Positions 31,755 through 53,733 of a DNA stretch of 64,000 nucleotides are shown here, in pieces (position 1 is the first letter of the stretch; each line of letters opens with the position of its first letter). The notes below the pieces were generated by a model that was not told where the DNA came from, did not search any database, and saw only the letters and a program-made list of their open reading frames with translations. The position numbers were made by a program, and so were the translations under genes. Source of the DNA: Trichomonas vaginalis G3 (taxonomy: Eukaryota > Parabasalia > Trichomonadida > Trichomonadidae); contig NC_067205.1 of assembly GCF_026262505.1 (NCBI RefSeq), positions 434,001-498,000 of the forward strand, in the 5' to 3' direction.

Positions 31755-31770
31755 AGGTGAGATCTCACCT
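31755..31770. repeat. palindrome AGGTGAGATCTCACCT, copy 1
   Basis: Perfect 16-bp palindrome in the left TIR, flanked by TTAGGTGAAG on the left and CTTTTTTCACC on the right. It lies between two minus-strand genes. Confidence 0.9.
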
Positions 31771-31817
31771 CTTTTTTCACCTGTTTTTTCACCCTATTGA
31801 ATTCATTACTTTATAAC

Positions 31818-32318
31818 TCACTTCCTTGGTTTCTTTTTAGTTGCTTTCTTCACGTCTGTCTCCAACTTGACTGTCTTTCTTCTTCGTCCGTAATGATACC
31901 AGTTACTTCCACCAGTCAATGGGTCAAATGGTCTTTCGTAAGGGTTTCCATACATTCCATAAGGTCCGTATGGATAAACTACTGATGGAGGAAGAGTTCC
32001 ATCGACTCTATTTAAATGCATTGTTTCACCTTTCATCTGGTCATTAAAGTCTTTTGCATGTTTTGCAAACTCATCATCCTTTCCTAAAGCATTTTCTGAC
32101 TCAGTCGCAACCAAATTGGATGCTTTATTTATGAGCCCTATTTTATTTAATCTTAACTTCTTTGCAACCCAGCCTCCAATCTTTCCTTTATTTGCATCTA
32201 ATGTCTTCGAAACCCTTCCTCCACTCATTTTATTTACTGCGTCATAAGCTCCAAGTGCTTTTGCTCCAAATGCTAATGCTTTTGTTCCCATTGCGCCTAA
32301 AGCTGCCCAAGCTACCAT
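31818..32318 (-). CDS. putative minor virion protein (Gly/Ala-rich head, basic tail)
   Basis: A 166-residue protein with a hydrophobic Ala/Gly-rich N-terminus (WAALGAMGTKALAFGAKALG), a Pro/Tyr/Gly-rich middle (YPYGPYGMYGNPYERPFD) and a strongly basic C-terminus (KKATKKKPRK). This composition is typical of internal or membrane-active virion proteins in Polintons and adenovirus-like capsids. The assignment is by composition and position only. It stands in a minus-strand cluster with the small 65-residue protein and a minor capsid-like protein, with no space between stop and next start. Confidence 0.6.
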   Translation of the reverse strand: MVAWAALGAMGTKALAFGAKALGAYDAVNKMSGGRVSKTLDANKGKIGGWVAKKLRLNKIGLINKASNLVATESENALGKDDEFAKHAKDFNDQMKGETMHLNRVDGTLPPSVVYPYGPYGMYGNPYERPFDPLTGGSNWYHYGRRRKTVKLETDVKKATKKKPRK

Positions 32319-32516
32319 TTACACCATATTAAAATCATCTCTCTTCAATATTATCTCATAAAAGTTCTCGTTACTGGAGAAAGTCAATGAAACATAAACA
32401 TTCTCATTCATAAACTTCTTTCTTATCTCATCTATTCTCAATAAAATATCTGAACAATTGCTAACATCTTCTACAACAGTTATTTCATCATGAATGACCT
32501 TCAAGAACAAGCTCAT
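32319..32516 (-). CDS. unknown 65-residue Polinton protein
   Basis: A small protein (begins MSLFLKVIHDEITVVEDVSN) encoded directly between the two larger minus-strand genes, each start following the previous stop without space. This arrangement suggests a gene cluster rather than chance. ATATTAAATG precedes it, the usual start context in this element. No domain is recognised. Confidence 0.5.
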   Translation of the reverse strand: MSLFLKVIHDEITVVEDVSNCSDILLRIDEIRKKFMNENVYVSLTFSSNENFYEIILKRDDFNMV

Positions 32517-33398
32517 TTAATATGCAATTAAAATCATCTCAATAATGAGTCCATCCTTTCCATCTTTAGGTAGCACAACATCTTTCATTGAAGAAGGTTC
32601 GACAAGTCTTATGTTAAACTTACTGACAAAGTTTGTTATACTATAATGCTTCGGTGGCGAATACATGTAGTTTGAAAGACATAATATAGATTCTTCAGCA
32701 AATTCACTTATACTGGATTTTATAACAATGTTTTCACGAGACCAAATACCACCAATTGACAATCTTGTAAGCAATCCTGCTGAACCTTCAACTGTAAACG
32801 TCGATGGTAACATTCCACGAAGGTCATCTATTGACATCTTTGAGTCACTGAATTTAAAGATTTTCTTAAAGCAATCGTCATTATCTAACCATGCAATAGC
32901 TTTGAAGTTTTCATTCGAATATACATCTGCTTCATTAAATGTAAAACCTGACTTCTTTGCAGAGATGACTTTAAAATCTATTGAGTTTGTTTCAAAATTA
33001 TATACTATGGTAACTTCTGAAGGTAATGGATGTCCTTCCACAGTCAGTTGTTCTCTCACTACCATTTGAAGCTTTGTGTTAAAAACTTTCATGTCATCTC
33101 CTGTATCTAAGTTCACATACACAGCAACAGGAAAACTATCTTGCTTCTTTGTTTCATCATTATATCTCAAAACATTAAAGTTCTTCAATAATATTGTTCT
33201 TCCTGCTGGAATACTTCGAACCTGTCTGATTTCAATAGCTTTCTCACCTCCTACATACTCTACCCAGTGCCTTGGATATTCATAAGTATACTGACTTTCT
33301 TGAATTTTGGTTGGTTTCATCATAACGTGTTCATAGTATATCTTTATACTCTTGTCAGTTAGACTCGGTGCTATGTTCTGAATATTTCTGACTTGCAT
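32517..33398 (-). CDS. minor capsid-like structural protein A
   Basis: A 293-residue beta-rich protein. The upstream in-frame codons to 33485 overlap the ATPase gene, so I start at the ATG at 33398, which has the element's usual ATTTTATC...TTAAAAATG context. It is related to the protein at 49700-50557. Both have a P-x-x-W-x(4)-GEK-like block near the N-terminus and a C-terminal block of the form G-IW-R, then P-KYY/HYS-I/LT-F, then VLP-D-KD-L-IE. Together with the genomic position next to the packaging ATPase, this suggests a virion component such as a minor capsid or penton-associated protein. It is divergent from the ATPase gene with 16 bases between the start codons. Confidence 0.6.
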   Translation of the reverse strand: MQVRNIQNIAPSLTDKSIKIYYEHVMMKPTKIQESQYTYEYPRHWVEYVGGEKAIEIRQVRSIPAGRTILLKNFNVLRYNDETKKQDSFPVAVYVNLDTGDDMKVFNTKLQMVVREQLTVEGHPLPSEVTIVYNFETNSIDFKVISAKKSGFTFNEADVYSNENFKAIAWLDNDDCFKKIFKFSDSKMSIDDLRGMLPSTFTVEGSAGLLTRLSIGGIWSRENIVIKSSISEFAEESILCLSNYMYSPPKHYSITNFVSKFNIRLVEPSSMKDVVLPKDGKDGLIIEMILIAY

Positions 33399-33414
33399 TT
33401 TTAATGGAGATAAA

Positions 33415-34302
33415 ATGAAGCATTTAATACATGACGTAGATGAAGACATGAATGAAACTACAGACAAACTTAACTCTTCTCTCATTCTTCCTTTCAGTAA
33501 GGACTATGAGTTCTGTTCAAATGGCGTTTATTTCTATTGTGGAAAGATGGGTTCAGGTAAGACATTTAATTTAATTCGTCATATACTCATAACAGAGCGT
33601 TTAGGAAACGACTCTTACTATGACCAAATCATTATATCAGCAACTTCAGACTCTATGGACTCAACAGCGAAAACATTTATGTCAAAAGTTCAAGCCTCTG
33701 TCGTTAAAGTTCCAGACAGTGAACTCATTGAATTTCTTCAACGTTACATTCAACGTAAGAGGAAATATTATGCCATCGTTGAATTTATACAGTCAGGAAT
33801 GCAAAAGACTTCTGAGGAGATGGAAAGAATTATTGACAAACACCACTTACGTCAGTACTCAGGAGTTTACGATATGAAACGACTTACAAACTACATTCTA
33901 TCAAAACTTTCAAAATACCCCTTCAAAAAATATCCTTCAAATACTTTGTTAGTTTGCGACGACTTCGCCGGAAAAGGTTTAGTGTCAAAACCAGACTCAC
34001 CATTAGCGAACATCATTACTAAAGTCAGACATTACCATTTAACTGTAGCAATACTTATGCAAACATGGCGTTTCCTTGCTTTAAACATAAAACGTCTCAT
34101 AACTGACTTCGTTATCTTTCAAGGTTTCTCACGTTATGATATTGAACTCATTTGGAAACAGTCAGGTATAACATTACCTTTTGAAGAAATTTGGGAAGCA
34201 TATAAGTCTCTCATCTCTCCTCGTTCATACCTTGAGATTCATATCATGACTAATACCATTAAAGTCAAAAATATTCCATGGGAACGACCAACATTGTTTT
34301 AA
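33415..34302 (+). CDS. A32-like genome-packaging ATPase (FtsK/HerA type)
   Basis: A 295-residue P-loop ATPase with Walker A CGKMGSGKT (about residues 42-50), Walker B TLLVCDDFAG (about 177-186), and a following polar motif in VAILMQTWRFL. This is the A32-like packaging ATPase found in Polintons, virophages and large DNA viruses, which would pump DNA into the capsid. All motifs are intact and the length is normal for the family. The start is the ATG at 33415, 16 bases from the divergent start of structural protein A. The stop overlaps by 4 bases with that of the convergent gene at 34299. Confidence 0.9.
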   Translation: MKHLIHDVDEDMNETTDKLNSSLILPFSKDYEFCSNGVYFYCGKMGSGKTFNLIRHILITERLGNDSYYDQIIISATSDSMDSTAKTFMSKVQASVVKVPDSELIEFLQRYIQRKRKYYAIVEFIQSGMQKTSEEMERIIDKHHLRQYSGVYDMKRLTNYILSKLSKYPFKKYPSNTLLVCDDFAGKGLVSKPDSPLANIITKVRHYHLTVAILMQTWRFLALNIKRLITDFVIFQGFSRYDIELIWKQSGITLPFEEIWEAYKSLISPRSYLEIHIMTNTIKVKNIPWERPTLF

Positions 34303-34691
34303 AGCTTAACCTTCAATTGACTGATGGTAAACAAATTCCATGCATCTCTGTCGCCATTTCTGTTAATATTTTTGCTGTCATTCATATCATCCACTTCTCC
34401 ATCCGTTAGCTTTTGAGGATATGTGTTAGAATAGCTGTTCTTAAATGAAGGCTTTTCACCTTTGAGAGCATAAACTCTATAACTTTCTGCATACTTTATG
34501 TTTGAACCTCCTGAGCCATCATTGACATAAATTTTTATAGGCTTCCACCCTTTGTTCATGTTCCTGCTTCTTCCCTTAGCTCTTTTGTTCAGGAGTTCTA
34601 CATCTTTATACACAGCTCCTGTCTCAGTGAATTCAACAATATTTTCATTCGTTAGCTTTACATTCAAACCCTTGTCGAGTATATTGTTCAT
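34299..34691 (-). CDS. unknown Polinton protein
   Basis: About 130 residues starting MNNILDKGLNVKLTNENIVE. The open frame continues upstream to 34817 but that part overlaps the divergent plus-strand gene, so I use the ATG at 34691 (34700 is the alternative). It has a basic stretch (LNKRAKGRSRNMNKGWKP) and an Asn/Asp-rich C-terminal half. No domain is recognised. It may be a small virion protein. Confidence 0.5.
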   Translation of the reverse strand: MNNILDKGLNVKLTNENIVEFTETGAVYKDVELLNKRAKGRSRNMNKGWKPIKIYVNDGSGGSNIKYAESYRVYALKGEKPSFKNSYSNTYPQKLTDGEVDDMNDSKNINRNGDRDAWNLFTISQLKVKL

Positions 34692-34725
34692 TTCATACAT
34701 ATAAAAGGTTTTTATTCTATATGAA

Positions 34726-35340
34726 ATGAGAAGCAAATCCATCTTAGCTGGTGCCGTTAATGTTCCAATTGAACCAACATCAAATGTTGACTCACGAACG
34801 ACAAACAATATTGTCATAAAGAACTATAGTTCAGAGTGTTTGAAAGAACCAGAACCAGAGCTGAAATCCGTGAATTTAAACACAGCTTCAAACGCTAACG
34901 CTACATCAGATGTTAAGTTAGAGTATCCACCACTGGACCAAATTCTTTCAAGAGAAGCCAACGACAACCCTTACATAAATGTTCAAACAAATCCTTCAGA
35001 TAACGTAGACCATTACCTTCTTCAGTTATACCAAACAATTTTACTCAAAGACGATAAGAAGCTTTTGACAAATCTTATAAGCAAGAACCAAATAATTCTA
35101 ACAAAGGAGGACCTTGAAAATGTTATCTCACGAATAACAGGAAAGCAATGTGTCATTGACTATCTCGACCCTGAAATCGAATGCTGTGGTCAAACGCCAC
35201 CATTCATGAAAATAGGTAACATCCGCATCATTGAAACACCAGGAACTACAGGAGTTGAGTTTAAGTATAAATATTCGAACGAGTATACAAAACTTTCAAC
35301 AGAATATAAACTTTGCTTGAAATATGTTTTAGTAAATTAA
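34726..35340 (+). CDS. unknown Polinton protein
   Basis: A 204-residue protein with a polar, low-complexity first half (NLNTASNANATSDVKLEYPP) and a more ordered second half containing a Cys-Cys (DPEIECCGQTPPFMKIG). No domain is recognised. It is preceded by TTTTTATTCTATATGAAATG, the element's promoter-like pattern. Its stop overlaps the stop of the minus-strand gene at 35337. Confidence 0.55.
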   Translation: MRSKSILAGAVNVPIEPTSNVDSRTTNNIVIKNYSSECLKEPEPELKSVNLNTASNANATSDVKLEYPPLDQILSREANDNPYINVQTNPSDNVDHYLLQLYQTILLKDDKKLLTNLISKNQIILTKEDLENVISRITGKQCVIDYLDPEIECCGQTPPFMKIGNIRIIETPGTTGVEFKYKYSNEYTKLSTEYKLCLKYVLVN

Positions 35341-35606
35341 AGCAATTTGTAATATCTATCCAAAACTTCTTCAACAGTATCGAACTCATCTTCATAATGC
35401 AAACCTAATCTTATTGACTTGGTGCAGTTTTCACTAACACAATATAGCGCTTTGCGCTCGGCGCCTTTGACGCCTTTTTCTGTTCTCTTGACTGACATAA
35501 CTAACTCATTTGTTTCATCAAACAGCAACAACCAAAGTTCATGACCTAATACATAACATTCATACTTTATATTTTTAGCTCTGAGTTCTCTTGTAAGCTG
35601 TTGCAT
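35337..35606 (-). CDS. unknown 89-residue Polinton protein
   Basis: A small protein (YVLGHELWLLLFDETNELVM in the middle, acidic C-terminus EFDTVEEVLDRYYKLL). It overlaps the 3' end of the next minus-strand gene by 40 bases in another frame. A GC-rich hairpin (AGCGCTTTGCGCT near 35444) lies inside the gene. No family is recognised. Confidence 0.5.
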   Translation of the reverse strand: MQQLTRELRAKNIKYECYVLGHELWLLLFDETNELVMSVKRTEKGVKGAERKALYCVSENCTKSIRLGLHYEDEFDTVEEVLDRYYKLL

Positions 35607-36343
35607 TTAATATTTTCTAAAAAGTCAACTTCAACAGTCATTCGCACTGGTGCCTTCAGTTCTACAGGCTCGCCTTGAAAGTCAACAAGTCTGAATTGCA
35701 TGTCTTTCAAATTATGAGGACTAATGCGAATCCATTTACCTAAATGAGTTGCTATGACAGGAACGTTTGGAATGAACATTGAATTGACTGCATAACAGAA
35801 AGATTTATATTCTACTGAACCTTTACTATTAACTCCTGAAATACCTGTGACATTAGCTATTTTAGACTCAATGTACAAACAATTACCATAACATACGTAT
35901 GGAACAGATTTCATCTCAATCGTTTTGTCAACACTTTTCAAAGGAAATGTCATATGGTATGCTCCCAGAAGCAATTGAACTCTATGACTCATTCGTGTTA
36001 TCTTAAACTCCTTCACATAACTGAACTTCAAAACTCCTGCAATAAGTTTAACATTCATTAAGTTTTCTTCGTTATCCTTGTTTATTGTAGTATTTATGAG
36101 AGCATTTAACACTCCAGCTAATGTTTCCATCTTATATTCTACATTATTGTGAAATCTTATTTCGTGCTTCTTTCCATCTATTTCAAACTCCATGAAATCT
36201 GTTTCATCTGTTATGACAAAAGTTGCGATAGTATTGAAGTCAACAACTCTGAAAGCAAGTGCTTCATTCTGTAGACCTAAGTTTGTTTGAAGCTTTACTA
36301 TTCCGTATTCGTTTGGGTCTGTACTTTGCAAATAGAACAACAT
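35567..36343 (-). CDS. penton/minor capsid candidate
   Basis: A 258-residue beta-rich protein. The C-terminal text (FRLVDFQGEPVELKAPVRMT VEV) resembles the last strands of the small structural proteins of Polintons and adintovirus-like elements, where a line such as f-lvD--G-pv-L---v-v-l closes a jelly-roll. This suggests a penton-type single jelly-roll protein, inferred from pattern only. It starts at 36343 and is divergent from the collagen-like gene, with 17 bases between the start codons. Confidence 0.5.
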   Translation of the reverse strand: MLFYLQSTDPNEYGIVKLQTNLGLQNEALAFRVVDFNTIATFVITDETDFMEFEIDGKKHEIRFHNNVEYKMETLAGVLNALINTTINKDNEENLMNVKLIAGVLKFSYVKEFKITRMSHRVQLLLGAYHMTFPLKSVDKTIEMKSVPYVCYGNCLYIESKIANVTGISGVNSKGSVEYKSFCYAVNSMFIPNVPVIATHLGKWIRISPHNLKDMQFRLVDFQGEPVELKAPVRMTVEVDFLENIKCNSLQENSELKI

Positions 36344-36360
36344 TTTATTCTCATTAAAAT

Positions 36361-37020
36361 ATGACTATTGCTGCATATGCGTATGAAACAAATGAAGCAA
36401 GAAGAGCACATGAACTAGTAAACGAAAACTCAACTTTAACCATTGAAGGCAATGATTTAGTCATTGACGATGGAAAAACTAAAAAAGTCATTGATTTCGA
36501 TACTTTTAACACTTATGACCCATTCATTACAACAAGCAAGGTTCCTATCATAAATGATGGAACGGTGCAATATATAAATTCTACAGTAGATGCCTCATTA
36601 GTGAAAGTATTAAGTGTTCTCATTGAATTGTTAAAGAGCTTTCGATTTGACGACAACATTAAATGCCTAAAGAATTTAGTCATGAATGAGAAACAAATTC
36701 TTGGCGTTGCTGGTAGCAGTAATGATGTACACCTTATGACATTAGAATATTATAACGAACATAAAGATGAACTGAAAGGAGAGAAGGGTGACACCGGACC
36801 TCAAGGACCTCAAGGAATACAAGGAATACAAGGAATACAAGGAATACAAGGACCTCAAGGCGAAAACGGTTTGGATGGAAAGGATGGAAAGGATGGAAAA
36901 ACTGCTAAATCATGGATATGGGACCTTATAAATACTGGTTTAACAGCTGCTTCATATGGAGTTCTTCAATACCAAATCGGAAAGATATGGGCGGTACTTG
37001 GTGGAAGAAGTTTTAAATGA
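36361..37020 (+). CDS. collagen-like fibre protein (may be the 5' part of the next gene)
   Basis: A 219-residue protein. After about 140 residues it has a collagen-like Gly-X-Y stretch (KGDTGPQGPQGIQGIQG...) of about 13 triplets, coded by an almost perfect GGAATACAA repeat, then a hydrophobic segment (DLINTGLTAASYGVLQYQIG). It overlaps the next ORF by 65 bases in another frame. Where they overlap, the helical text of the next ORF would follow smoothly after the hydrophobic segment, so one original gene of about 1,026 codons with a single-base frameshift near 36990-37015 is likely. Collagen-like stalks are common in phage and giant-virus fibres. Confidence 0.7.
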   Translation: MTIAAYAYETNEARRAHELVNENSTLTIEGNDLVIDDGKTKKVIDFDTFNTYDPFITTSKVPIINDGTVQYINSTVDASLVKVLSVLIELLKSFRFDDNIKCLKNLVMNEKQILGVAGSSNDVHLMTLEYYNEHKDELKGEKGDTGPQGPQGIQGIQGIQGIQGPQGENGLDGKDGKDGKTAKSWIWDLINTGLTAASYGVLQYQIGKIWAVLGGRSFK

Positions 37021-39439
37021 CGTTAAAAATGCTTTGAACTTCATTTCAAATGGTTCGGATACTATTAAAACTTTATCTGGTTGGATGCAAGAAACAAGGA
37101 GTCAAATAGATACTGTAAGACGTATAGCAAACAATGCACGTACGGGATTGGATACTTTACGACAAGCACAAAATACACTAAAGGAAGCAAATGATATTCT
37201 TGGCTCAGTATCAGACATGCATGAAGATTGGCTTAAAGGTATTGACAAATCTTTAAAAAATCACAGTCAGTCTATTGCTGACTACAAGAAAAGTATAGAT
37301 TTTTTACATAGTGCTATGGACGTACATGATGGAAGCATAAGGAACTTACTTAATGCTAACAATAACTTACCAGGAACTATTAAAGCATTTATAAAGTCCT
37401 TTGTAAAACCTGGTGCTCTAACATTTAGGTCTTTGAGAGCAAGAGCATTGAAGTCAAGAGATGCAGAAACTCCAACAGAAGGAACTGAAACAACAGAAAC
37501 TCCAGAAGAACCACCAAAACCAACAGCTAATGAAATATTGTTCGAATATTTTCCAAGGTACTCTGTTCTCATTGCATACATTCAAGAAATACTTAAGAGA
37601 GCAGACTTGACTTTAGGAGATGATGAAAGTTCTGTATATCTTTCGTTCCAGTTTCAAATAGCAGAACTTTTGAGACAGATATGCTTAATGTATGACAACA
37701 TCTCTGATTTCACAAGATATGATGACGACCATGACCCCGAACACGGTGAAGAAGAAGTTTTACAAACATCCATTAAGACAGGAAAGGTTTTAACTCAAAG
37801 TCTCATTATTGACACCAAAGATGGCGAAGTGGACGTTCTTCAAGAGCTGAAGAAAAATACTTCTTCGGGAGGTGGTGGTAGGCATGAACTTGAAATAAAT
37901 GAGATAGAAGAGAAATTAGCCGAAAAAGCAGATAAAGAACATAAACACAATATCTCCGATATAAATGAACTTCAAGCTACATTAAATAGTAAAACAGATA
38001 AAAATGAACTTGACGCAATGAACAAAGTTTTGAAATCTCATAAACACAACATCTCCGATATAAATGAACTTCAAGCTACATTAAATAGTAAAGCGGACAA
38101 GAACCATGTTCATTATATAACTTCAGACGAACAGATTATAACGGACTACCATGGATATTTAACACGAAGTGATGAAGCGAAGACAAAAAATGTTAATGAA
38201 AGAAGATATAAATACATTCGTGCTAAAGGTTATGACATAAGCTGTACTGTACAGTATGATGTAGCTAAAGCACCAGAAGCATTTGGTTATACCGGTGAAA
38301 TTTATGCCTCTACTTTCAATGTTAACGGTGTATTAGTTGAACCAAGATTTACTTTGAGAGTTAAGTCAAAAATAACGTTTGAAGATGCTATTAAAAGTAA
38401 AGCTGACAAAGATGAACTCGAAGCAACGAACAAAGTTTTGAAATCTCATAAACACAACATCTCCGATATAAATGAACTTCAAGCTACATTAGACAGTAAA
38501 GCTGACAAGAACCATACACATAAATCCTTCACTACTGTTAGAGCAGACGACATAATATTGAACTTTGACCTTGGTTCAAGTGCACCATTAGAAAATCCAA
38601 GTACAAGCGTAAAAGATACTCTTAACAGTTTAGATAAGAGTTGCAGGAACATTGAAAGTCATGCCAGAAACTTTGAAGCACATGAACTACCAACAATGTT
38701 AGATAAGAAAGCAGATAAAACTTATGTGGATGCAGAACTAACAAAGAAATTTTCGAAACCAGATACAATGACATTTACAACAGAAATTATAAATGGTGAA
38801 CCAGCAACTCCATTTGAATTTGTTAGAGGTCTTCAACCAGATACTTTTGAATTTTTCTTGGATAATTCTATTGAACTAACATTACATTATAAAAGTGGAA
38901 CAAATGCAACATTTCATCCGGGAGATACATTCCAAATGGTATTTAATGACATAAGTTCTTTAGAATATGTTTATAGAGTTATGAGCATATATGATTTAAT
39001 ATATCCTATAGGAGCTGTTTATACGTCTATGAATCCAATAAATCCAAACACTTTATTTGGTGGTAGATGGTATGAAATAGTTGACAGTTTTCCATTCTAC
39101 ACTAATACGCAGTCAATGAAGATGGGAGGTTCAAAGAAAATAGGTATTGAAAACCTTCCTTCACATATGCATAGGTTCAGTGGAAGAACATCTGTGGAAG
39201 GAAACCATTCACATTCAATAACAAAAAGAGGTTATACAAATCTTGCAGCGGGTTCGGATAGACAGGGAATGCATAGATATGATATTTCAACTGACCCAGT
39301 AGATTCAAGCACAGGTATTTTCTGTGGAACTGCAGGAAATCATACACATGTTGTAGCTGGTATTACAGACCCAGCAGGTAATGGAAAAGATTATATGCCT
39401 CCTTATATAACAATGCACGCTTGGATACGAGTTGGTTAA
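36956..39439 (+). CDS. phage-tail-fibre-like protein with gp10-type C-terminal domain
   Basis: An 827-residue fibre-like protein. A helical/coiled-coil N-terminal third is followed by three near-identical blocks with HKHNISDINELQATLNSK (around residues 323, 361 and 495), as in trimeric tail fibres. The C-terminal domain has YPIGAVYTSMNPINPNTLFG, then GGRWYEI, LPSHMHRFSG, NHSHS, GNHTH and a final MPPYITMHAWIRV. This His-rich domain is typical of phage tail-fibre/baseplate gp10-like receptor-binding tips, whose histidines can bind metal. The likely role is a virion spike. The ATG at 36956 lies inside the preceding gene, so the true start may be that of the collagen-like gene. Confidence 0.8.
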   Translation: MEFFNTKSERYGRYLVEEVLNDVKNALNFISNGSDTIKTLSGWMQETRSQIDTVRRIANNARTGLDTLRQAQNTLKEANDILGSVSDMHEDWLKGIDKSLKNHSQSIADYKKSIDFLHSAMDVHDGSIRNLLNANNNLPGTIKAFIKSFVKPGALTFRSLRARALKSRDAETPTEGTETTETPEEPPKPTANEILFEYFPRYSVLIAYIQEILKRADLTLGDDESSVYLSFQFQIAELLRQICLMYDNISDFTRYDDDHDPEHGEEEVLQTSIKTGKVLTQSLIIDTKDGEVDVLQELKKNTSSGGGGRHELEINEIEEKLAEKADKEHKHNISDINELQATLNSKTDKNELDAMNKVLKSHKHNISDINELQATLNSKADKNHVHYITSDEQIITDYHGYLTRSDEAKTKNVNERRYKYIRAKGYDISCTVQYDVAKAPEAFGYTGEIYASTFNVNGVLVEPRFTLRVKSKITFEDAIKSKADKDELEATNKVLKSHKHNISDINELQATLDSKADKNHTHKSFTTVRADDIILNFDLGSSAPLENPSTSVKDTLNSLDKSCRNIESHARNFEAHELPTMLDKKADKTYVDAELTKKFSKPDTMTFTTEIINGEPATPFEFVRGLQPDTFEFFLDNSIELTLHYKSGTNATFHPGDTFQMVFNDISSLEYVYRVMSIYDLIYPIGAVYTSMNPINPNTLFGGRWYEIVDSFPFYTNTQSMKMGGSKKIGIENLPSHMHRFSGRTSVEGNHSHSITKRGYTNLAAGSDRQGMHRYDISTDPVDSSTGIFCGTAGNHTHVVAGITDPAGNGKDYMPPYITMHAWIRVG

Positions 39440-39458
39440 AATCTTTAACTTTACATAA

Positions 39459-40539
39459 ATGAGCTTGAAAGAAGTATTCGAACAACATCCATGGAGGTCA
39501 TTTAAGAAGTTCAATGAAGCTGCAAAGAGTCGGGGATTTACTAACAGAGCTGAAGTGAAAAGGTTCTTTGACAAAAATGTTGTACATCAAACAAAAATAA
39601 ACCCTTACGACTTTTTACCAATTTACTCCAACACTCCTGACGCATACCAATTTGACACTCTCATTCAAAGCAGAAAAGGAGGACATAAACCATTCCTCAT
39701 CTTCATAAATGTTAACACTCGTAAAGCATATGCATATCCAATGAAAAAAAAGAACTCGTGAAGTGTTAAGAGTTTTACAAAAGTTTGTAGCAGAACATAA
39801 CCCAAGTACTTTAACATCAGACCAAGACAGTGCATACCTCAGCAATGAAATCACAGAATTTCTCATTAAGCATAACATAACTCACTACACTACTGAAGAC
39901 CATAACCATAACATACTCGGCATCATAAACCGCTTCATAAGAACGCTCAGAGATTTAAACCAAGAGCGAGACTTTACCGAAGAAACAATGAAACATTTTC
40001 TCGAAGTATATAATTCCTCAACACATTCTACAACAGGACATACACCAAATTCAATGACACAACAACAAGAAGAAAAGTATATACAAAAGAAACGAAGCCA
40101 AACACAAAATATCAGAAATTCAACACAATTTACCCTCATTCCTGGTACAAAAGTTCGTGTAGTTCTTGACGACAAACCGTTGACAAAGAAACGTTTAAGG
40201 TTAAGTCGAAATTATTATATCGTAGACTCTACGCAAGGTAATGGATATCTTATAAAAGCTGCCGACGACTCTATTGCGTTTTATCCTCAACATAAATTAG
40301 TCGAAAGTAGTAATGGCAAACTTGCTGAAACCATTGACGAAGCAAAGCGAGGAGTGGTTATTGAAATACTTGGCTACAACATAAACGATGACACTTATAA
40401 AGTAAGATATGAAGGAGGCGTTGAAGATGTTATACCATCTAAGAACTTGAGAGAGTCGAAGCCAACACATCTGGGACCATTAGAGCGGGAGTACTGGAAA
40501 GACAAAAATATGCCAGAAAGAATAAGAAAATTCTTCTAA
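39459..40539 (+). pseudogene. retroviral-type (DDE) integrase of the Polinton, frameshifted
   Basis: Two open stretches, 39459-39758 and from about 39751 to 40539, make one rve-type integrase of about 360 codons. The first catalytic Asp is in YQFDTLIQ, the second in LTSDQDSAYLS. The third position falls in HNILGIINRFIRTLRD, where the usual Glu of the V-E-R-F pattern reads Asn. A C-terminal SH3/chromo-like region follows (EILGYNINDDTYKVRYEGG). The break is a run of eight A at 39744-39751; seven A would restore the frame. It could be a real indel, a sequencing error or, less likely, programmed frameshifting. The enzyme would insert the element and make the ACTTA duplication. Confidence 0.85.
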
Positions 40540-40585
40540 ACTTTTTCGTTGGATGTAAATCAGACAAAATATATTTTAGGTGAAG

Positions 40586-45086: not shown

Positions 45087-45103
45087 CCAAAATATATTTT
45101 TGC

Positions 45104-45576: not shown

Positions 45577-45909
45577 TATAATAAAAATATTAAATTATTT
45601 TGAAAAATAACTTAAAAAAAATCTAATCTAATTTTTTCAAAAATATTTTTTTTATTTCCTACTAAAGATGTATCGGAAGTTGTCTAAGTTAGAACACTCG
45701 GAAATAAAAAACTTCTTACAGAAGCTAACTAGATGTTGCAAAGCATTACGCAACAAACAAAAAGCACTCGCTGACTTCATTAAAGACTATAATGGTGCAA
45801 TAAGTTATGATAGAATTCATGATTCATTAATAACAAAACTTTCCTTTAAATGACGTTGCTATTGACTTATATCATAGACGTTCAATACCTCATGAAGTAA
45901 GAAGAAGAA

Positions 45910-46140
45910 ATGTTTGACATAACAAATGCAAACGTTGGTCATACTCGTAAAGCTCTTTCACATGATGTTCGTCAAGAAATGTTTGACATAACAAATGCAA
46001 ACGTTGGTCATACTCGTAAAGCTCTTTCAATGATGTTCGTCAAGAATGTTTGACATAACAAATGCAAACGTTGGTCATACTCGTAAAGCTCTTTCACATG
46101 ATGTTCGTCAAGAAGATGTTTGACATAACAAATGCAAACG
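45910..46140 (+). repeat. four-copy 69-bp tandem repeat in the polymerase gene
   Basis: Units start at ATGTTTGACATAAC at 45910, 45979, 46046 and 46116, with spacings 69, 67 and 70. The first unit is in phase (23 codons). The later units carry single-base losses or gains at their junctions, so no single frame passes through. Confidence 0.85.
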
Positions 46141-46919
46141 TTGGTGAAACAAGAAGAAGAGACGACACACTGAAACAACAGAGAAGAGAGATGTTTAGAG
46201 CGCTATAGAACAAGTTCGCAAAGCTAACGATGTCATTCGTTCCATTGACGACAAACCAAAAGAAGGTGAGAGATGGTTAAAGAAAGATGAAGAGAATAGG
46301 AAGAGAAATGTGAAGTCAGGCAATAGACTCATTGACTTTAACATCGAAGCTTTAGATGAACCAAACAGAGACTACTTACACAAAACATTTCGGTAAGGTT
46401 TTCATGAGACTCTTAGAGAAAATTAAAATAAACTCACAACAGAGATGGATGGTATGTTATAAACTTGGTGGAAAGTATGAATGTTCTACGTTAAACCTCA
46501 ATAATATTGGAACACATTACTACATCAGCTCTTGAAGGAGAACTTTATATCAGAGATAGAAGCAAATGCTGCAGGTATTGTTGAAAATGCACTATGACTT
46601 CTTCTTGACAAACATAAAGAATCTTACCGAAATAAAGATGTATGATTTAACAGAATATGAAGGCTTAACGATGTCAGATGTAAAGAAAGGCAAACCAAAA
46701 AAGAGACCATATAGAGATGAAAGCACACTGACAAATGACCAGAAAGCCATTTTGGAAGCTCTTAAGCAAACAGGAAACCCAGCACTTATAGAAAGCTTTT
46801 GGAAAGATAATGGTGAAAAGAAGTTTTATAAGAAGAGAAGCGGTCAGTTCTGGAAGTATCTTTGCACATTACCTATAAATCTTGAACGCTACCAAATCTT
46901 CAATGAACTGAACAAAAGA

Positions 46920-47220
46920 ACTGCAACACTTATGACAGAAGACAATTGTTTCGTTTATGCTTGCATTCAGGCTGGAGTAGATGGAGAGACTATTGACCAC
47001 ATGAGAGAAGTCATTCGTGTTAGAGACTTTCCTCAAAGTAAAGTACAAGAAATTTCTGACGCAACAGGTATAGCATTTAATGTTACCATTGGTTATTTCA
47101 ATGACTCAAGACATAATGAAATAAAGAGATACATACCAAAAGAATGTGAAACTGTTCGAACTATTGACTTACTTCTTGTTGAAGACCACTACATGCTAAA
47201 CGAAAGATTACCAATGACAA
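46920..47220 (+). other. OTU-like cysteine-protease-type domain within the polymerase gene
   Basis: Around the Cys codon at 46947-46949 the protein reads TEDNCFVYACIQAG, like the DGNCLFRA loop of OTU proteases. About 80 residues later IDLLLVEDHYML (His codon 47187-47189) resembles the closing H-Y strand. The spacing and order fit an OTU-type fold, but this is a pattern match by eye. Confidence 0.4.
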
Positions 47221-49615
47221 CATATTTCATTCGCAACTATATAGAAATTCTCAAAGCTTGTGGTGGAATGAACATTGAGAACAGATGAAATATATTACAA
47301 AGAGAGAGAATAAATATGTAGTTCGTTATGATAGAACAACACCGTATGGATGTTATGAAAACATTGTGGGAGTGCAAATATTTCGAACCTATTTCTTATG
47401 GAGAACTTTTCACATATACGACTGACTTATATAAACAGAACCTTGCACCATTTAAAGATTTGACATATGCTCCAAAGTATTGTGTACAACTGAAGAAGAA
47501 AGCAGAGTCAAAAGAAGTAAATAAAAATAAGTGCAAGTTCATTCCTGAGCACGTTTTCTTTGCTGACTTTGAGTGTAGTACAGATGGCTTTCATAAAGCT
47601 TTTAACATATGTTACGACAATGAAGATGGTTCAGTGAGTGAAAGCATTTGGGGTCAGAACTGTGCAACAGAATTTTTGGAACGACTTCCTGACAAGAGTT
47701 TAATATATTTCCATAACCTCAGTTATGATATAAACTTCATCTTAAGACACATGACAGAAGTGAAAGGAACTCCCATCATTAAAGGTTCACGAACAATGCA
47801 AATAACTGGCTTATATAAAGGAAGGGCAATTATTATAAAAGACTCTTACAGTGTTATAAATAAGAAGCTTAAACTATTTCCTGCTATGTTTAACTTACAA
47901 ACAGGACCGAAAGAAGTATTTCCATATAACTACTACAGCAGTGTTTTGTTAGCAAATGACAACAGAACTGGTGTCATTTCTGAAGCATGTAAGTTTCCGG
48001 ATGCAGATACGTTCATGAAGAACATAGATTCCATCAAAGGTTGCAGAATAGATGAGAACCACTTCGACTTAGAAAAGTATAGCACATTTTATTGCAAACA
48101 AGATGTAAGAATTTTAAGAGAAGGTTTTGTTAAGTTCCGCAATGACATATTGAAAGAATTTGATTTAAACGTTTATGACTACGTTAGTATTTGTTCTATT
48201 GCTAACAAATTGTTTGAGAACAGAGTGTACTTCCCGAATGGAAATTTATATGACCTCTCAAATAAACCAAGAGAATTTATTTCGAGATGTATTCAAGGTG
48301 GAAGATGTATGTTGTCAGATAACATTAAACAAAAGAGCGAAAAGAAACTCATTGCTGATTTCGACGCTGTTTCATTATATCCATCCGCTATAGCAAGACT
48401 TTATACTTTAGAAGGTATTCCAAAGGTTATGAAGAAAGAAATGTTAAGCACAGAGTATCTCATGAGACATTTATTTGATGACGACCAAAAGGAACCCATT
48501 GGTGAAAAGTTTATGTCTGGCTTCTTTGTTCTCATTAAGATAACAGAGATTGGAATACATAGACACTTTCCTTTAATAGTTTGTGACCCTGAACTAAATC
48601 CAGAACTTAATGTTCCCAGAAGTTCAAACACTTGCTGTTTAATGTATGTTGACCATATAACATTACAAGACCTCATAAAATATCAAGGTGTCAAATGTGA
48701 AGTGTTGCAAGGATACTATTACGATGGAAACAGAGATATTAGAATAAGAGATGAAGTAAAGAAGTTGTTTGAGTTAAGGTTAAAGTATAAGAAAGAAGGA
48801 AATCCTTTGCAAGAAAATATAAAGCTCATTCTGAACAGTATTTATGGCAAAACTATTCTATCTCCTATTGAGTCAAAAATAACCATAGTAAATGACAAAG
48901 ATGCTATAAGATATGCCATCAGAAACTACAACCATATAGTGAAGTTCGAAGGTTTGGATGGTTCAGATAAAACTATTTTCAAGCTAACGAAAAGTATTTG
49001 CAGACACTTTAACTTCTGTCCACTTGGTGTTAACATTCTGTCTATGTCGAAGAGAATAATGTGTGAAGTATTCTGTACTGCTGAGGACTTAGGAATGGAC
49101 ATCTTTTATAGCGATACCGACAGTATGCATCTCTACAATGAAGATATCCCTCGTTTAGCTGAAGAGTTTGAGAAACGTTATGGAAGAGTTCTCATTGGTA
49201 AAAACCTTGGTCAATTTCATAGCGACTTTGCAGAAATCAACACCTGGAAAACAAAGTTTAGCATACAAGTCAATATTTTGTGGAAAGAAGACTTACATAG
49301 ACTTACTCACGAATGATTTAAATGAAGTTGCATTTCACTGCAGAATGAAAGGCGTGAAGCAAGATGTTATTGCTTTAACCGCTAATGAAATGTTTCCTGA
49401 CTCTGTTCAGTGTTTCTATGATGAAGATAAAGGTTTAATGGTTCCGCAAGGAAAATTTGACAAAGACTCTGAGTTCAGTGTTATGAAGTTATATAAAGCA
49501 CTTTATGACGGTCAAGAGATTGGATTTGACTTATGTAAGTCTTCTACCTTGCTTTGCTGAAAAGTTTAACTTTTCTATTCAGACTAAAACAAGCTTTATT
49601 CGTAAGTTGAAGTTC

Positions 49616-49700
49616 TGAGGTCATTTATTTTTGTCAGCAATGAGGTCATTCGTGATAAAAATAAGCCGCTAGCGGCAAGGGCGAAGCCCATGAGGTCATT
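49616..49700. terminator. convergent 3' region with two hairpins and a triple repeat
   Basis: Between the convergent ends of polymerase and minor capsid B lie three copies of TGAGGTCATT (49616, 49641, 49691), a perfect 12-bp palindrome GCCGCTAGCGGC (49665-49676) and a GGGC-GAA-GCCC hairpin (49679-49689). These GC-rich hairpins in AT-rich DNA may separate the two transcripts. Confidence 0.5.
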
Positions 49701-50557
49701 TACAATACTGCGATGGTAGAGTTTAAGAGTTGTGCTTCAATGTAGAGACAGTCCTTATGGTCTGGAGGTAGCAAAACAGGTGCTTTATGGTCATGAGTGG
49801 AGAACATGTCTATCCAAAACTCACGATTGAAGCCAGTAAGCTTGTAATACTTAGGATTTGGCAGTGGTGAAGTTCTTGTATGACCAATGAACTCATTTTC
49901 AACTCCCTTACTTAAGTTTGAATATAATATAGCTTGCTTTCTATCCCAAATGCCAGGTGTTACAATCTTTGAAAATTCATTTTTCCTCGGAAGCATTGCA
50001 TAATAATTGAAAACATTTTTGAAGTCATCATTTGGTTCAGAGATTTGAAATCTTATACGTAATGGATTTTTTTTCTTTTTAGCTACTTCATTGAATGGTG
50101 AGAATACAATGAATTGACAGTCATGAGTTCCATCTTCATTTTCATTAAATTCATAATGAAAGTCTATAAGTTGTGGCCGACTACCTTCTTCCTTCAGTTG
50201 TGCAAGAAACTCACGTAAAGGCTGTAAAGTTTGTACTTCAATGTTGAACTTTTTCTCGAACATCTCATTAAATGAAATCATACATTGCAACAATGTTGTA
50301 TCGTCTTTAAAGTATTTGTATATGTGAATGTTTTGGGCGCTTAAAGACTGTTCGTCATTTTCTATCTCGACTTGAAGTATAAAGTCAACCTTTCTGAAAG
50401 CACGTGTTATATACATAGATGTTATGCCAATGTACTTCTCTTCATTTATGTTCACAATCCAGTCTGTTGGAAACTTAAACGTTACTCTGTTCCCCTTTAT
50501 TTTGACGTCAGGGTTTTCACTACTGAACGCAACAGATAAAGGTATTTGTCTATACAT
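49700..50557 (-). CDS. minor capsid-like structural protein B
   Basis: A 285-residue beta-rich protein, intact, related to protein A at 32517-33398 (shared blocks FKFPTDWIVNINEEKYIGIT near the N-terminus; GIWDRKQAILYSNLS and PKYYKLTGF and VLLPPDHKDCLYIEAQLL near the C-terminus). It lies beside the major capsid cluster, which fits a virion role such as minor capsid or cement protein. It is preceded on its strand by ATTTTTATCCGAATTAAATG, nearly the same promoter-like sequence as before the major capsid gene. Confidence 0.65.
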   Translation of the reverse strand: MYRQIPLSVAFSSENPDVKIKGNRVTFKFPTDWIVNINEEKYIGITSMYITRAFRKVDFILQVEIENDEQSLSAQNIHIYKYFKDDTTLLQCMISFNEMFEKKFNIEVQTLQPLREFLAQLKEEGSRPQLIDFHYEFNENEDGTHDCQFIVFSPFNEVAKKKKNPLRIRFQISEPNDDFKNVFNYYAMLPRKNEFSKIVTPGIWDRKQAILYSNLSKGVENEFIGHTRTSPLPNPKYYKLTGFNREFWIDMFSTHDHKAPVLLPPDHKDCLYIEAQLLNSTIAVL

Positions 50558-50581
50558 TTAATTCGGATAAAAATAAACCAT

Positions 50582-50842
50582 TTACTCTTTCTTTGCTTCA
50601 GCTTCTTTAGCTTTTGCTTCAGCTTCTTCTCTAGCTTTCTTCGCCAGCAAACGTGGGTTCTTTTGTCTTCCAGCAGCTAATGCAGCAAGTTGTTTTTCAC
50701 TAAGTTTTCTCTTTGGTCTCTCTGGCTTTTGTTCTTGTTTTTGTTCCTTCAGTTCGGATAAAATTTGCTCACGAATTTCTTTCTTCAATGCTTCAACATC
50801 TATGACCCCTTGGGTCTTGTCCGTAGGGCTTGTCTGAGTCAT
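50582..50842 (-). CDS. small charged helical Polinton protein
   Basis: About 86 residues, rich in Lys, Glu, Gln and Ala (LKKEIREQILSELKEQKQEQ; later AREEAEAKAKEAEAKKE). A basic central part (RPKRKLSEKQLAALAAGRQK) suggests DNA or capsid-interior binding. The open frame continues to 50863, but the ATG at 50842 has the usual TTTTTTATC...CAAATG context. No family is recognised. Confidence 0.55.
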   Translation of the reverse strand: MTQTSPTDKTQGVIDVEALKKEIREQILSELKEQKQEQKPERPKRKLSEKQLAALAAGRQKNPRLLAKKAREEAEAKAKEAEAKKE

Positions 50843-50887
50843 TTGACTGCAGATAAAAAACAAAATTAAAACTTTAACCGATGTAAA

Positions 50888-51319
50888 ATGAGCTTGTCAA
50901 AATCAGAGCGAGAGTCTATTATATTAAATGACGCCAGAGGAATACAACATCCTTTCTATTACGTAAGTCAGAGTAAAGATGGTAAAATATACGTAAGAAA
51001 AAGAAAGGTTCCATTAGCGAATGCAGAAAGCGACAACATTAAGGTGTATGGCAAGGGTGAAGTCCCGAAGCCCATTAAGCCTTCTATTCAAACTGAAAAG
51101 TCAATAGAACAAGAAGAAAAGAAGCCAGATGTACTTTCAATAACGAACCAAGAGCTTATTGCAAAGTTTGTGAATTTCATTGAAAAACAAACCGAGTCAA
51201 AGAACCCTGACCCGCCAGTGAAAGAAGTTGAGACAAAAGAGAATGTACAGTTCATTGAAAATGTCAAGAAACAACTTCCACCACGAATGCCAAGAAGAAG
51301 AGTGAGAATAATGAAGTAA
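50888..51319 (+). CDS. unknown Polinton protein with an FYY...KDG module
   Basis: A 143-residue protein with a short module near the N-terminus (HPFYYVSQSKDGKIYVRKRK), an acidic/Pro-rich middle and an Arg-rich tail (PPRMPRRRVRIMK). The module resembles one in the small protein at 53441-53677 (GFYIHTMKDGRVQFRKIKQP). The gene sits directly upstream of the major capsid gene, so a virion role is plausible. Confidence 0.55.
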   Translation: MSLSKSERESIILNDARGIQHPFYYVSQSKDGKIYVRKRKVPLANAESDNIKVYGKGEVPKPIKPSIQTEKSIEQEEKKPDVLSITNQELIAKFVNFIEKQTESKNPDPPVKEVETKENVQFIENVKKQLPPRMPRRRVRIMK

Positions 51320-51346
51320 ATAGATATTTTTATCCGAAGTAAATAC

Positions 51347-52921
51347 ATGCAGAACGAACAGTTAAACGAATTTACTCCAGCAGAGCATATTCATCAGATT
51401 CGCTCATATTTCGATATCATAGACAATGCAGTTCAAATTGGTGACACTAATAGAAAATATTCTGACGCAAAGATTCCATCACAACCTGGAACTGCTAAAG
51501 ATAACACATGGGTAACATTCAATCTCTCACCTCCTGGTGAAAATATGTTGGACCTTTACAATACATTCATTACGTATAAAATGGAAGGTCAATTTATTGT
51601 AGATAAAGAAATTGGTTCAGGTTCCAATAAAACAAACCCACCAGGATTTTGGATTGGTTTCGATGACGCTTTCTATGCAGTTGCTGGATATCAAATCCTT
51701 GCAAATGGTCGTATCGTATATTCTCAAGACAACGCAAGAGAAGAAGCATATATAACTTCAAACTCACAAACTACCGAACAAATAAAGAAAGTAGATGTTT
51801 TCTCAAAGACTCGACATGAAGATGTATGGAGTCATTCGGGAACATGCAGAACAGGACAAATTGTTAGTGGTCCAATTACAGCAGGAAAATCATTTGATTT
51901 TAAGCTTCGTTTAAGAATTCCTGTTAGAAGATTCCTTCCATTAGAAGCTATTCGATTTATTCCAGCTTTTGCAGGAAACATTCAGCTTAAAGTAAAGTTC
52001 AGTAGCGACGCCTTACAATGCACATCTATATCTGTAAATGATATCATTGCTTTCAATCCAACTCTTAAAGTTGCATTTGCTTCAGATTCAAATCCACCGA
52101 CAAATAAATTTGTTCCATGGAATGAACCATTCACTATGATAACGAAGGCAGTAGAAGCTAGTGGAACAGTTACTATTACAACTGTAACCCAGCAACTATT
52201 TCGAACAAAGATGGATTTTAATGAATGTTTCATTCATCCAAAGTCATTCTCTTTAGACCCTAACATTTATACAGAACTTGTAGAACATTATACAAACGAG
52301 GCTTTATGTTTTCCTGTTAAAGTTATGGATTGGATTCCTATGGACGGTTCATTCTCAAAGAATACAGATAGTTCAAGTGCAACATTTACAGCAGCTTATA
52401 CGCCTATTAATGTTAAAAGTATTTGGGCACTATTTAGAAAGAAAGACAACTATTATGTTAATTTTGAGAACCCTAAGTTTAAATATCTTCAGCTTTCCAT
52501 GGGAGCTTATGGAAATATGCCTGCAGAACCTGAAAAATCATATGGACCTGTATTTTATGAAATGGTTGCGAACGCTTGCAATACAAACAATGATATGATA
52601 GGATTTAATGAAGATGTTATGAGGTCATTGGTGGATGATGGTAGTGTGGAACATAAATGGGATAGTTATGACAACACACATTTCTTATGTGGTTTTCCAA
52701 CAGAAGTGGACTTTTGCTTCCAGCAAGGTCAAACATCTACTGCTCCAATAACATACAAATTGTCTGTTAAAGGACCTATTGAACTAGCAACTGAAAATGT
52801 ACCAAAGCCACTTATTGGATTTATGAGGGATTGTTGCTTTGCCATTCAGGTGCGTGCTAATGGAATCCCCATAATAAGATTAGATGACTATAACTTAGCT
52901 ACGGACGACAGTGAGGAATAA
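51347..52921 (+). CDS. major capsid protein (double jelly-roll type)
   Basis: A 524-residue, intact, beta-rich protein with the look of Polinton/virophage major capsid proteins: an N-terminal arm (MQNEQLNEFTPAEHIHQIRS), TWVTFNLSPPGENMLDLYNT, and PVRRFLPLEAIRFIPAFAGN in the first jelly roll; LNMxP-like lengths and FLCGFPTEVDFCFQQGQT, then CCFAIQVRANGIPIIRLDDY at the end. The position in the capsid cluster supports it. It should form the hexagonal capsid lattice. The upstream TATTTTTATCCGAAGTAAAT matches the promoter-like sequence of minor capsid B. Confidence 0.85.
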   Translation: MQNEQLNEFTPAEHIHQIRSYFDIIDNAVQIGDTNRKYSDAKIPSQPGTAKDNTWVTFNLSPPGENMLDLYNTFITYKMEGQFIVDKEIGSGSNKTNPPGFWIGFDDAFYAVAGYQILANGRIVYSQDNAREEAYITSNSQTTEQIKKVDVFSKTRHEDVWSHSGTCRTGQIVSGPITAGKSFDFKLRLRIPVRRFLPLEAIRFIPAFAGNIQLKVKFSSDALQCTSISVNDIIAFNPTLKVAFASDSNPPTNKFVPWNEPFTMITKAVEASGTVTITTVTQQLFRTKMDFNECFIHPKSFSLDPNIYTELVEHYTNEALCFPVKVMDWIPMDGSFSKNTDSSSATFTAAYTPINVKSIWALFRKKDNYYVNFENPKFKYLQLSMGAYGNMPAEPEKSYGPVFYEMVANACNTNNDMIGFNEDVMRSLVDDGSVEHKWDSYDNTHFLCGFPTEVDFCFQQGQTSTAPITYKLSVKGPIELATENVPKPLIGFMRDCCFAIQVRANGIPIIRLDDYNLATDDSEE

Positions 52922-52951
52922 AGGATGAACGTTTATTTTTAAAGCTTATAA

Positions 52952-53392
52952 ATGAGTTCTTCATCAAGCTCTCGTGAACCTTCACCATCTATGAAACAAA
53001 CTTTACCAAACGATTATGGAGCACCTATTGAATATTTCTTACGAGCTGCACAATGGCAAAGAGCAGTTTCACCAAGGTTAGGTGTTCCACCAGCTCCTGT
53101 CAAAAATAGCATTTGGTCAAGTCCTTATATAAGATATGGTCTCCCACTAGGTTTGCTAGCTACAGCAGGAGCAGTTATGATGTTGAAAAGAAATAAAGCA
53201 AATGTTGTAAATAATACTGAAGTAGCTGAAGTTAAACAAACTCCGACACCTTCACAAGCAAAACCTTCAATGACTCCTGAACCTATGGAAGTACAAACTC
53301 CTGTTCAAAAGTCAACTCCTAAACCGACTCCAACATTTAAACCAGAACCTACTCCTCAAATAAATCGTAAAACTCCTGCGTTTCCTTACTGA
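52952..53392 (+). CDS. single-pass membrane protein with Pro/Thr-rich tail
   Basis: A 146-residue protein: a Ser-rich head (SSSSSSREPSPS), one hydrophobic helix at about residues 67-84 (YGLPLGLLATAGAVMML), and a Pro/Thr-rich tail (TPKPTPTFKPEPTP). Downstream of the capsid gene, it may be a virion-associated membrane protein. No family is recognised. Confidence 0.6.
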   Translation: MSSSSSSREPSPSMKQTLPNDYGAPIEYFLRAAQWQRAVSPRLGVPPAPVKNSIWSSPYIRYGLPLGLLATAGAVMMLKRNKANVVNNTEVAEVKQTPTPSQAKPSMTPEPMEVQTPVQKSTPKPTPTFKPEPTPQINRKTPAFPY

Positions 53393-53440
53393 AAAAATAA
53401 CGTTATTTTTATTTAATATTAAAATTTTTATTTGATTGAA

Positions 53441-53677
53441 ATGACAAATAAAGTCACTGAAGCAATGAAACAAAAGTTTTTGGTAGAATACATTAAATCA
53501 GGAACTATTCCGGAAGGTTTTTACATTCATACTATGAAGGATGGTAGAGTTCAGTTTAGAAAGATAAAGCAACCATTAGATAAAGAAGGTATATTAAGGA
53601 AGATTAAACTTCATGAGGACAACATTGCTGAACTTAGGAAGAAGTTAGAAGAGTTGGAGAAAGGAAGAGAGTTATAA
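53441..53677 (+). CDS. small Polinton protein with KDG module and coiled coil
   Basis: A 78-residue protein (begins MTNKVTEAMKQKFLVEY). The module GFYIHTMKDGRVQFRKIKQP is shared with the protein at 50888, and a short coiled coil ends it (NIAELRKKLEELEKGREL). The open frame reaches back to a TTG at 53432; the ATG is at 53441. The stop lies at the inner edge of the right TIR. Confidence 0.55.
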   Translation: MTNKVTEAMKQKFLVEYIKSGTIPEGFYIHTMKDGRVQFRKIKQPLDKEGILRKIKLHEDNIAELRKKLEELEKGREL

Positions 53678-53717
53678 AGTAATGAATTCAATAGGGTGAA
53701 AAAACAGGTGAAAAAAG

Positions 53718-53733
53718 AGGTGAGATCTCACCG
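53718..53733. repeat. palindrome copy 6 (last base changed)
   Basis: AGGTGAGATCTCACCG: like the left-TIR copy except for the last base, so one arm is imperfect. Orientation is that of copies 4 and 5. Confidence 0.85.

Follow-up and report, generated by a model that had tools for sequence, protein, structure and literature searches.

A Polinton with six copies of one palindrome

We analysed a 64,000-nucleotide stretch of the Trichomonas vaginalis G3 genome (contig NC_067205.1, positions 434,001 to 498,000; hereafter the window, in whose coordinates positions are given), which holds one copy of a Polinton/Maverick element. Six copies of a 16-bp palindrome lie between the genes of this element, and we consider below whether the palindrome may form the core of a recombination site bounding interchangeable gene cassettes. 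Several features of Polintons are present, namely long terminal inverted repeats (TIRs) with a short (5-bp) target duplication and, by Pfam, an rve integrase, a protein-primed type B polymerase and an A32-type ATPase. The rve match comes from the related copy L010, the integrase frame of the window being split. An open reading frame (ORF) at 51347-52921 is a candidate capsid gene, as its size fits a double-jelly-roll major capsid protein; it had no Pfam match. Between 39500 and 49600, the integrase, KilA-N and DNA polymerase frames are each broken into several ORFs, and the DUF3839 frame is open. Judged from the split frames, this Polinton copy looks decayed.

Table 1. Positions in the window of the Polinton, its sites and the segments that they bound (I side and version are defined in the text).
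Feature	Position	Strand	Remarks
Polinton/Maverick element	31167..54320		basis: TIR arms, termini, target duplication, A32-type ATPase, type B DNA polymerase
TIRs	about 31167-31827 and 53661-54320		inverted arms of ~0.66 kb
Target duplication ACTTA, 5 bp	31162-31166 and 54321-54325		read from the sequence at the element ends
Site 1	31735..31793	-	core 31755-31770; version A; left TIR; I side inward
Site 2	40566..40613	-	core 40586-40601; version A; between integrase and KilA-N
KilA-N cassette	40602..41454		between directly repeated sites 2 and 3; KilA-N frame split; Pfam 7.2e-20; absent in L010
Site 3	41434..41481	-	core 41455-41470; version A; upstream of DUF3839
DUF3839 gene (PF12943)	41577..42542	+	central gene; flanked by sites 3 and 4, whose I sides face it; Pfam 5.2e-157; proposed cognate protein
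DUF3839 codons 309-316	42501..42524	+	eight type-differing positions (alignment columns 310-317); type A in the window
Site 4	42552..42610	+	core 42575-42590; version A; immediately 3' of DUF3839
149-aa ORF cassette	42591..43137		ORF at 42623-43072; flanked by sites 4 and 5 as direct repeats; lacking from this junction in L012
Site 5	43113..43173	+	core 43138-43153; version A
Site 6	53695..53753	+	core 53718-53733, last base altered; version A; right TIR; I side inward

A sequence-only reading of the window had reported the palindrome at these six places, always between genes, with the same asymmetric flanks at each copy and with copies 1-3 oriented oppositely to copies 4-6. We confirmed each of these observations. 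The 16-mer AGGTGAGATCTCACCT is exact at the first five sites and has one mismatch at the sixth. These are the only window matches with up to 3 mismatches, against a shuffled expectation of 0.22, and six matches were reached in none of 100 shuffles. All six cores lie outside ORFs of at least 120 aa. Copies 1 and 6 sit within the Polinton TIRs and are therefore mirror images by descent. Across the T. vaginalis G3 genome, AGGTGAGATCTCACCT has 2180 exact copies.

An asymmetric site in three versions

The full site spans ~60 bp and is asymmetric, with iterons on one side (the I side), the palindromic core, and an extra half-site with an A/T linker on the other (the A side). The iterons are 12 bp long (RGGTGAAAAAAS or similar) and usually number two or three, and the A side consists of a CTTCACCTAAA half-site and then the linker, which closes in a T run. 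At many sites, a second short palindrome of the GCTGAATTCAGC or GGTGAATTCACC type often begins just past this T run. The version A core, AGGTGA-GATC-TCACCT, comprises two inverted half-sites around AGATCT. Its half-site AGGTGA is replaced by AGGTTA in version B and by TGTTA in version C, and the version B core AGGTTAGATCTAACCT and the version C core TGTTAGATCTAACA have 1772 and 2989 exact genomic copies, respectively. In versions B and C, the extra A-side half-site is also altered, and the iterons are altered in part.

Sites were classified by exact A, B or C core halves only. After 24 sites near stretch ends were dropped, 204 were left, representing 159 distinct contexts, and every one of these 159 had one I side and one A side. 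The flanks were joined in many combinations: 174 sites gave 70 distinct pairings of 26 I-flank and 33 A-flank families, and one I family was paired with 15 A partners. The joins were uneven, with an A1 partner at 36 of 55 I1 sites and an A2 partner at 27 of 43 I2 sites. The I flank of the TIR site was paired with family A5 in 8 of 10 cases, the remaining two carrying variants of the same repeat, and the TIR site thus looks fixed in its join.

Hybrid cores and the place of exchange

Cores combining halves of two versions were found at 17 of the 159 sites, spread over 13 loci. Written as I half followed by A half, the counts were AA 67, CC 40, BB 35, CB 6, CA 5, AC 4 and BC 2. The A half of the core agreed with the adjoining A-side half-site in 158 of 159 sites, and in 16 of the 17 hybrids. 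As the A half tracks the A-side half-site even in hybrids, exchange would lie between the two core halves, and the hybrid cores suggest that its place is the shared AGATCT centre. Hybrids were also found genome-wide, where the A/B hybrid core has 232 copies and one form of the A/C hybrid core has 50. For comparison, A words carrying one of the two remaining bases at the A/B position have 16 copies in all, 9 of them in one 14-kb cluster.

The main alternative is that the sites are operators of an element-encoded regulator, either DUF3839 or a KilA-N protein, and that homologous recombination or template switching among many similar copies swaps cassettes incidentally. Iterons combined with a palindrome are typical of regulator binding. 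However, versions that share little beyond AGATCT exchange at the core, with 17 hybrids against one mismatch between A half and A side in 159 sites, and the pairing of one I side with one A side is kept throughout these exact-core sites. Further evidence bearing on this alternative is given with the DUF3839 gene below.

Gene content varies at the sites

We use cassette for a segment between like-oriented sites, and compared the window copy (W) with other site-bearing loci (L001, L007, L010 and so on). At the junction of integrase and DUF3839, the integrase-side flank is common to W, L007, L010, L012 and L023. The start of the DUF3839-side flank is also common to them as far as printed, L010 departing after ~25 bases. 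Between these flanks, L010 has a single site and nothing else; W, L007 and L023 have KilA-N; and L012 has a spacer and a T5orf172-family gene. L001 and L024, in which this junction is different and rearranged, were left out of the comparison. On the downstream side of DUF3839, sites 4 and 5 of W enclose the 149-aa gene, and L012 runs directly into the flank that follows site 5 in W; a Pfam scan of the 149-aa ORF gave no match. A spacer present there in L010 is missing from L001 and L024, and some cassettes are gene-less spacers. The KilA-N gene, the 149-aa gene and the spacer are each present or absent at sites, so that the sites stand at gene-content breakpoints between copies, a placement that the sequence-only reading had proposed to look for. 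Its suggestion that the palindromes are recombination points gains support both from this variation and from the hybrid cores, which put exchange at the centre.

In 18 chains of sites, those pointing one way ('<') come before those pointing the other ('>'). Chain M3, which covers several elements, shows '<' then '>' more than once, and the short locus L027 has only '>' sites. The I-to-A polarity was kept in all 50 full-length recurring pairs of direct cassettes (20 opposite in raw direction; 19 within one chain). The orientation of DUF3839 relative to the integrase was the same in the 7 loci that hold both, with no inversion seen. Homogenisation of sites within arrays was strong when the M5 tandem array was included and weak without it (0.375 vs 0.228; 90 of 2000 shuffles reach the value), and we do not claim it.

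The sites might instead be the terminal repeats of small transposons nested in Polintons, with DUF3839 as the transposase. The I sides do face DUF3839 in inverted orientation, and the runs of '<' then '>' sites would fit. We nevertheless consider this reading very improbable, since the other cassettes have direct, not inverted, flanking sites and keep their polarity, and the same site is present inside the Polinton TIRs. A 2-6 bp target duplication was found around the DUF3839 unit in 0 of 14 tested, and a nested transposon with such a duplication was rejected.

Genes for possible nucleases also occur in cassettes or beside arrays. T5orf172 (Pfam, 6.2e-08), whose protein we take to be GIY-YIG-like, is found in one cassette family (L010:6581-7192), and an HNH_3 endonuclease gene (Pfam, 3.9e-11) lies beside an array (L019:6367-7071). 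A cassette-borne nuclease of either kind might cut the core and drive homing-like copying, DUF3839 being only a binding partner or passenger; a cut in AGATCT would leave compatible ends. However, of 10 mapped DUF3839 loci, some of them only 3 kb long, four held the T5orf172 family and one the HNH family, and the covariation described next is with DUF3839. This explanation therefore seems to us a long shot.

The DUF3839 tail covaries with the version of neighbouring sites

A protein search with P0020 listed at least 127 genomic matches to DUF3839, biased to type C (see below) by the query. Of these listed matches we sampled 60, about every second one, by homology alone, and inspected the 3' ends of all 60 and the 5' ends of 40. 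A site followed DUF3839 in 59 of 60 copies and preceded it in 39 of 40, the 39 upstream sites lying ~93-142 bp before the start. Some public DUF3839 records (P0013, P0022, P0027 and others) are titled 'organellar and viral DNA polymerase type B', a name that seems to be mistaken.

Of 329 protein relatives, 120 were listed, and these fell into three C-terminal types (28 A, 50 B and 41 C), with 1 unassigned. Among the 119 typed proteins, near-fixed differences between types were confined to eight residues at alignment columns 310-317. Identity in the body was nearly equal within and between types, the largest gap being 0.804 vs 0.756 at columns 181-200, and in tail columns 301-320 it was 0.963 within types vs 0.698 between. 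In ten equal-length genes (7 A, 2 C, 1 B), synonymous divergence of the body was 0.29 both within and between types, with dN/dS of about 0.1, and that of the tail was 0.08 within types vs 0.82 between. This pattern suggests that the body recombines across types and is under constraint, and that the tail acts as a divergent three-way module.

The tail type was the same as the version of the 3' core half in 56 of 58 copies; two further genes, one lacking a site and the other having a changed half, did not enter this comparison. For the 5' core half, at a distance of ~1 kb, 31 of 39 copies agreed (C 19/22, B 8/12, A 4/5), against a permutation mean of 15.5, and none of 20000 shuffles reached 31. 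The 5' link may partly reflect shared ancestry. We think that matching between protein and site explains it better, since the body diverges on average as much within types as between them.

Several of these results can be read in favour of operators. The 39 upstream sites stand at a short distance before the DUF3839 start, the nearly equal average body identity within and between types implies frequent homologous recombination, and two KilA-N genes lie near arrays. Sites are also found directly after genes, however, for example just past the DUF3839 stop codon. Together with the hybrid cores, this leads us to regard operators with incidental swapping as unlikely, albeit the strongest of the alternatives. 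The operator role raised by the sequence-only reading may survive as an extra function of the upstream sites.

Other candidates were set aside. A KilA-N protein is less likely to be the cognate protein, as the cassette KilA-N family was found in 3 of 10 and a second KilA-N family in 5 of 10 mapped DUF3839 loci. Adenine methylation at GATC was dropped, as T. vaginalis 6mA is reported to favour WATW and TAT, with no enrichment in transposable elements (PMC12695648).

A proposed cassette-exchange system

The anatomy of the sites, the modular joins, the presence or absence of cassettes, the hybrid cores and the covariation of the DUF3839 C-terminus with the half-site can all be seen in the sequences. 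On balance, we lean towards a recombination (joining) site with the palindrome as its core, which would delimit interchangeable cassettes in T. vaginalis Polintons and have DUF3839 as its cognate protein. In the proposed mechanism, cassettes would lie between directly repeated sites, with one I end and one A end, and two cassette arrays would face outward from the central DUF3839 gene. Exchange in the AGATCT centre would connect the I half and the A half of two different sites, and DUF3839 would read the half-sites. From the tail-site covariation, DUF3839 probably binds the half-sites through its C-terminus. The exchange is also fairly likely to be enzyme-driven at the core and not ordinary homologous recombination. 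DUF3839 itself might cut or join the DNA, a step on which we incline slightly to doubt. The broadest form of the proposal is more tentative still: DUF3839 could be a new family of site-specific recombinase running a two-sided, integron-like cassette platform in a eukaryotic DNA-virus-like element. An eight-residue C-terminal module would then determine the choice of site, and at least three specificities of this module would have evolved with the half-sites.

A number of observations weigh against this proposal. At the level of the sites, one degenerate core outside the 159 (L003:1670) has A-side-like sequence on both sides. The hybrids are partly clustered, with 4 in L029 and 2 in L030, and their counts therefore do not represent independent events. 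The nearest iteron fits the adjoining core half in just 121 of 159 sites, 26 of the other 38 being C cores with B-type iterons. Polarity was reversed in 33 of 461 matches between direct cassettes (full-length or not). Of these, 29 are at most 119 bp long; each of the other four, with lengths of 685-722 bp, involves the T5orf172-gene segment, e.g. L010 vs L012.

The covariation also has exceptions and possible simpler causes. The tail and the 3' site are ~30 bp apart, so that their link is partly physical, and 17 type C rows share the same downstream sequence and are near-clones. The 5' link fails in 8 of 39 copies, four of which have a B tail with an upstream A site, and in L030 a B tail stands beside an A site. 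The nearest relative by body has the same tail type in 0.657 of cases vs 0.345 expected, and columns 181-200 are slightly type-dependent; shared ancestry may accordingly explain part of the covariation.

Searches for a function of DUF3839 gave no help to a recombinase. A Pfam scan of the protein returned only PF12943 and no recombinase signature, and no match was found in NCBIfam. Among 29 protein entries scanned, a subset of the ORFs that included DUF3839, none had a phage-integrase Pfam match and the sole integrase was rve. The best PDB sequence match of the DUF3839 profile had an E value of 0.26, and the match of the C-terminus to LicT (PDB sequence; E 0.018) was weak. PHROG matches were only to groups of unknown function (best E 0.0035), and an IMG/VR scan for relatives confirmed none. 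The structure model of the full-length protein (pLDDT 37) was unusable, and a single-sequence model of the C-terminal 70 residues (pTM 0.32) was uninformative and not used. Finally, only 25 of 38,656 transposable-element ORFs are reported to exceed the mRNA threshold of one study (PMC7845603), so the system may be largely silent and its present activity is doubtful.

Distribution of the sites in the genome

The sequence-only reading had proposed a genome search for the 16-mer, to see whether it is confined to Polintons. Confinement held for all six copies in the window; elsewhere it was borne out in part, for A sites. An A-type TIR marker, TTCACCTAAATTTATTTTTGTGCTATG, has 982 genomic copies. 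Over the first 2.98 Mb of contig C1, its copies make 12 inward-facing pairs at distances of 17.6-26 kb, and these pairs span 8.5% of the stretch. Among the listed non-TIR sites there, 21 of 48 A sites, 0 of 28 B sites and 6 of 39 C sites lie inside these pairs. Within 22 kb inward of any marker (16.5% of the stretch), the counts were 32, 9 and 6, and in the outward control (24.5% of the stretch) 8, 5 and 14, respectively. A sites thus appear strongly tied to Polintons, and B and C sites may belong to families with other ends.

In loci L001-L024, which were picked for holding sites and from which the overlapping L004 was omitted, 45 of 67 sites had a window-Polinton ORF family within 5 kb in the same locus. 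The count was unchanged when the DUF3839 and KilA-N families were excluded. Of the 22 sites with no such family nearby, 18 are in L018-L019, which lies between A-type repeats.

Unusual arrangements were seen at some loci. L013-L014 has tandem 2.8-kb repeats of a Polinton right end, which comprises capsid-side genes and the TIR site. L018-L020 (C1:2942201-2961100) is a Polinton-like element of ~18.7 kb that forms one large palindrome with a site array at its centre; three blocks, about 8.2 kb in total, match their mirror at 96-99%, and no DUF3839 ORF was found in it. It looks like a snap-back or defective genome. In the window, the left target flank (31000-31166) has a repeat with 121-bp spacing, whose first copy keeps the uninterrupted target sequence.

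Comparison with known systems

Mavericks are given ~5,000 copies and 73 Mb of the T. vaginalis genome in the study cited above (PMC7845603). If the proposal is true, the cassette system would explain the turnover of Maverick accessory genes, and DUF3839 would gain its first function. The three natural pairs of site and tail also offer a ready-made test of protein-DNA specificity. In the open-licence literature searched, we found no description of this site, of a function of DUF3839 or of cassettes in Polintons, and no dedicated gene-cassette exchange system in a eukaryotic virus-like element.

The host element itself is a Polinton/Maverick transposon, with rve integrase, type B polymerase, A32 ATPase, TIRs and short target duplication, and the open-licence literature searched on these transposons yielded no cassette or site-exchange system. 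Some related elements, the Polinton-like viruses and virophages that carry a tyrosine recombinase, use an attachment site adjoining the recombinase gene for recombination, and integration of whole Polinton-like viruses by tyrosine recombinases is described (PMC4642659, PMC12220804). There the whole element integrates, whereas here sub-element cassettes would be swapped within a Polinton whose integrase is of the rve type; DUF3839 matched no tyrosine recombinase.

The site also resembles other repeated sites in part. Its half-sites repeated at 12-bp spacing around a palindrome recall the iteron and operator arrays of plasmid and viral regulators, from which it differs in its hybrid cores and in the apparent exchange of cassettes at the centre. 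Bacterial shufflons and invertible segments likewise have short repeated recombination sites between swappable segments, but here whole genes are gained and lost, and the loci with both integrase and DUF3839 show no inversion.

The closest likeness is to the bacterial integron (IntI, attI, attC), in which directly repeated asymmetric sites bound cassettes of fixed polarity and the mix-and-match arrays lie next to a dedicated gene. Like our site, attI carries additional direct repeats to one side of its core. In the T. vaginalis elements, too, a specific site bounds the cassettes and their polarity is fixed, with the T5orf172 segment as the exception, but the 29 protein entries scanned with Pfam included no tyrosine recombinase beside an array. 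The system proposed here further differs in residing in a eukaryotic virus-like transposon, in its arrays on both sides of a central gene, DUF3839, which lacks a tyrosine recombinase match, in the gene-less spacers among its cassettes, and in having three site versions that track an eight-residue tail.

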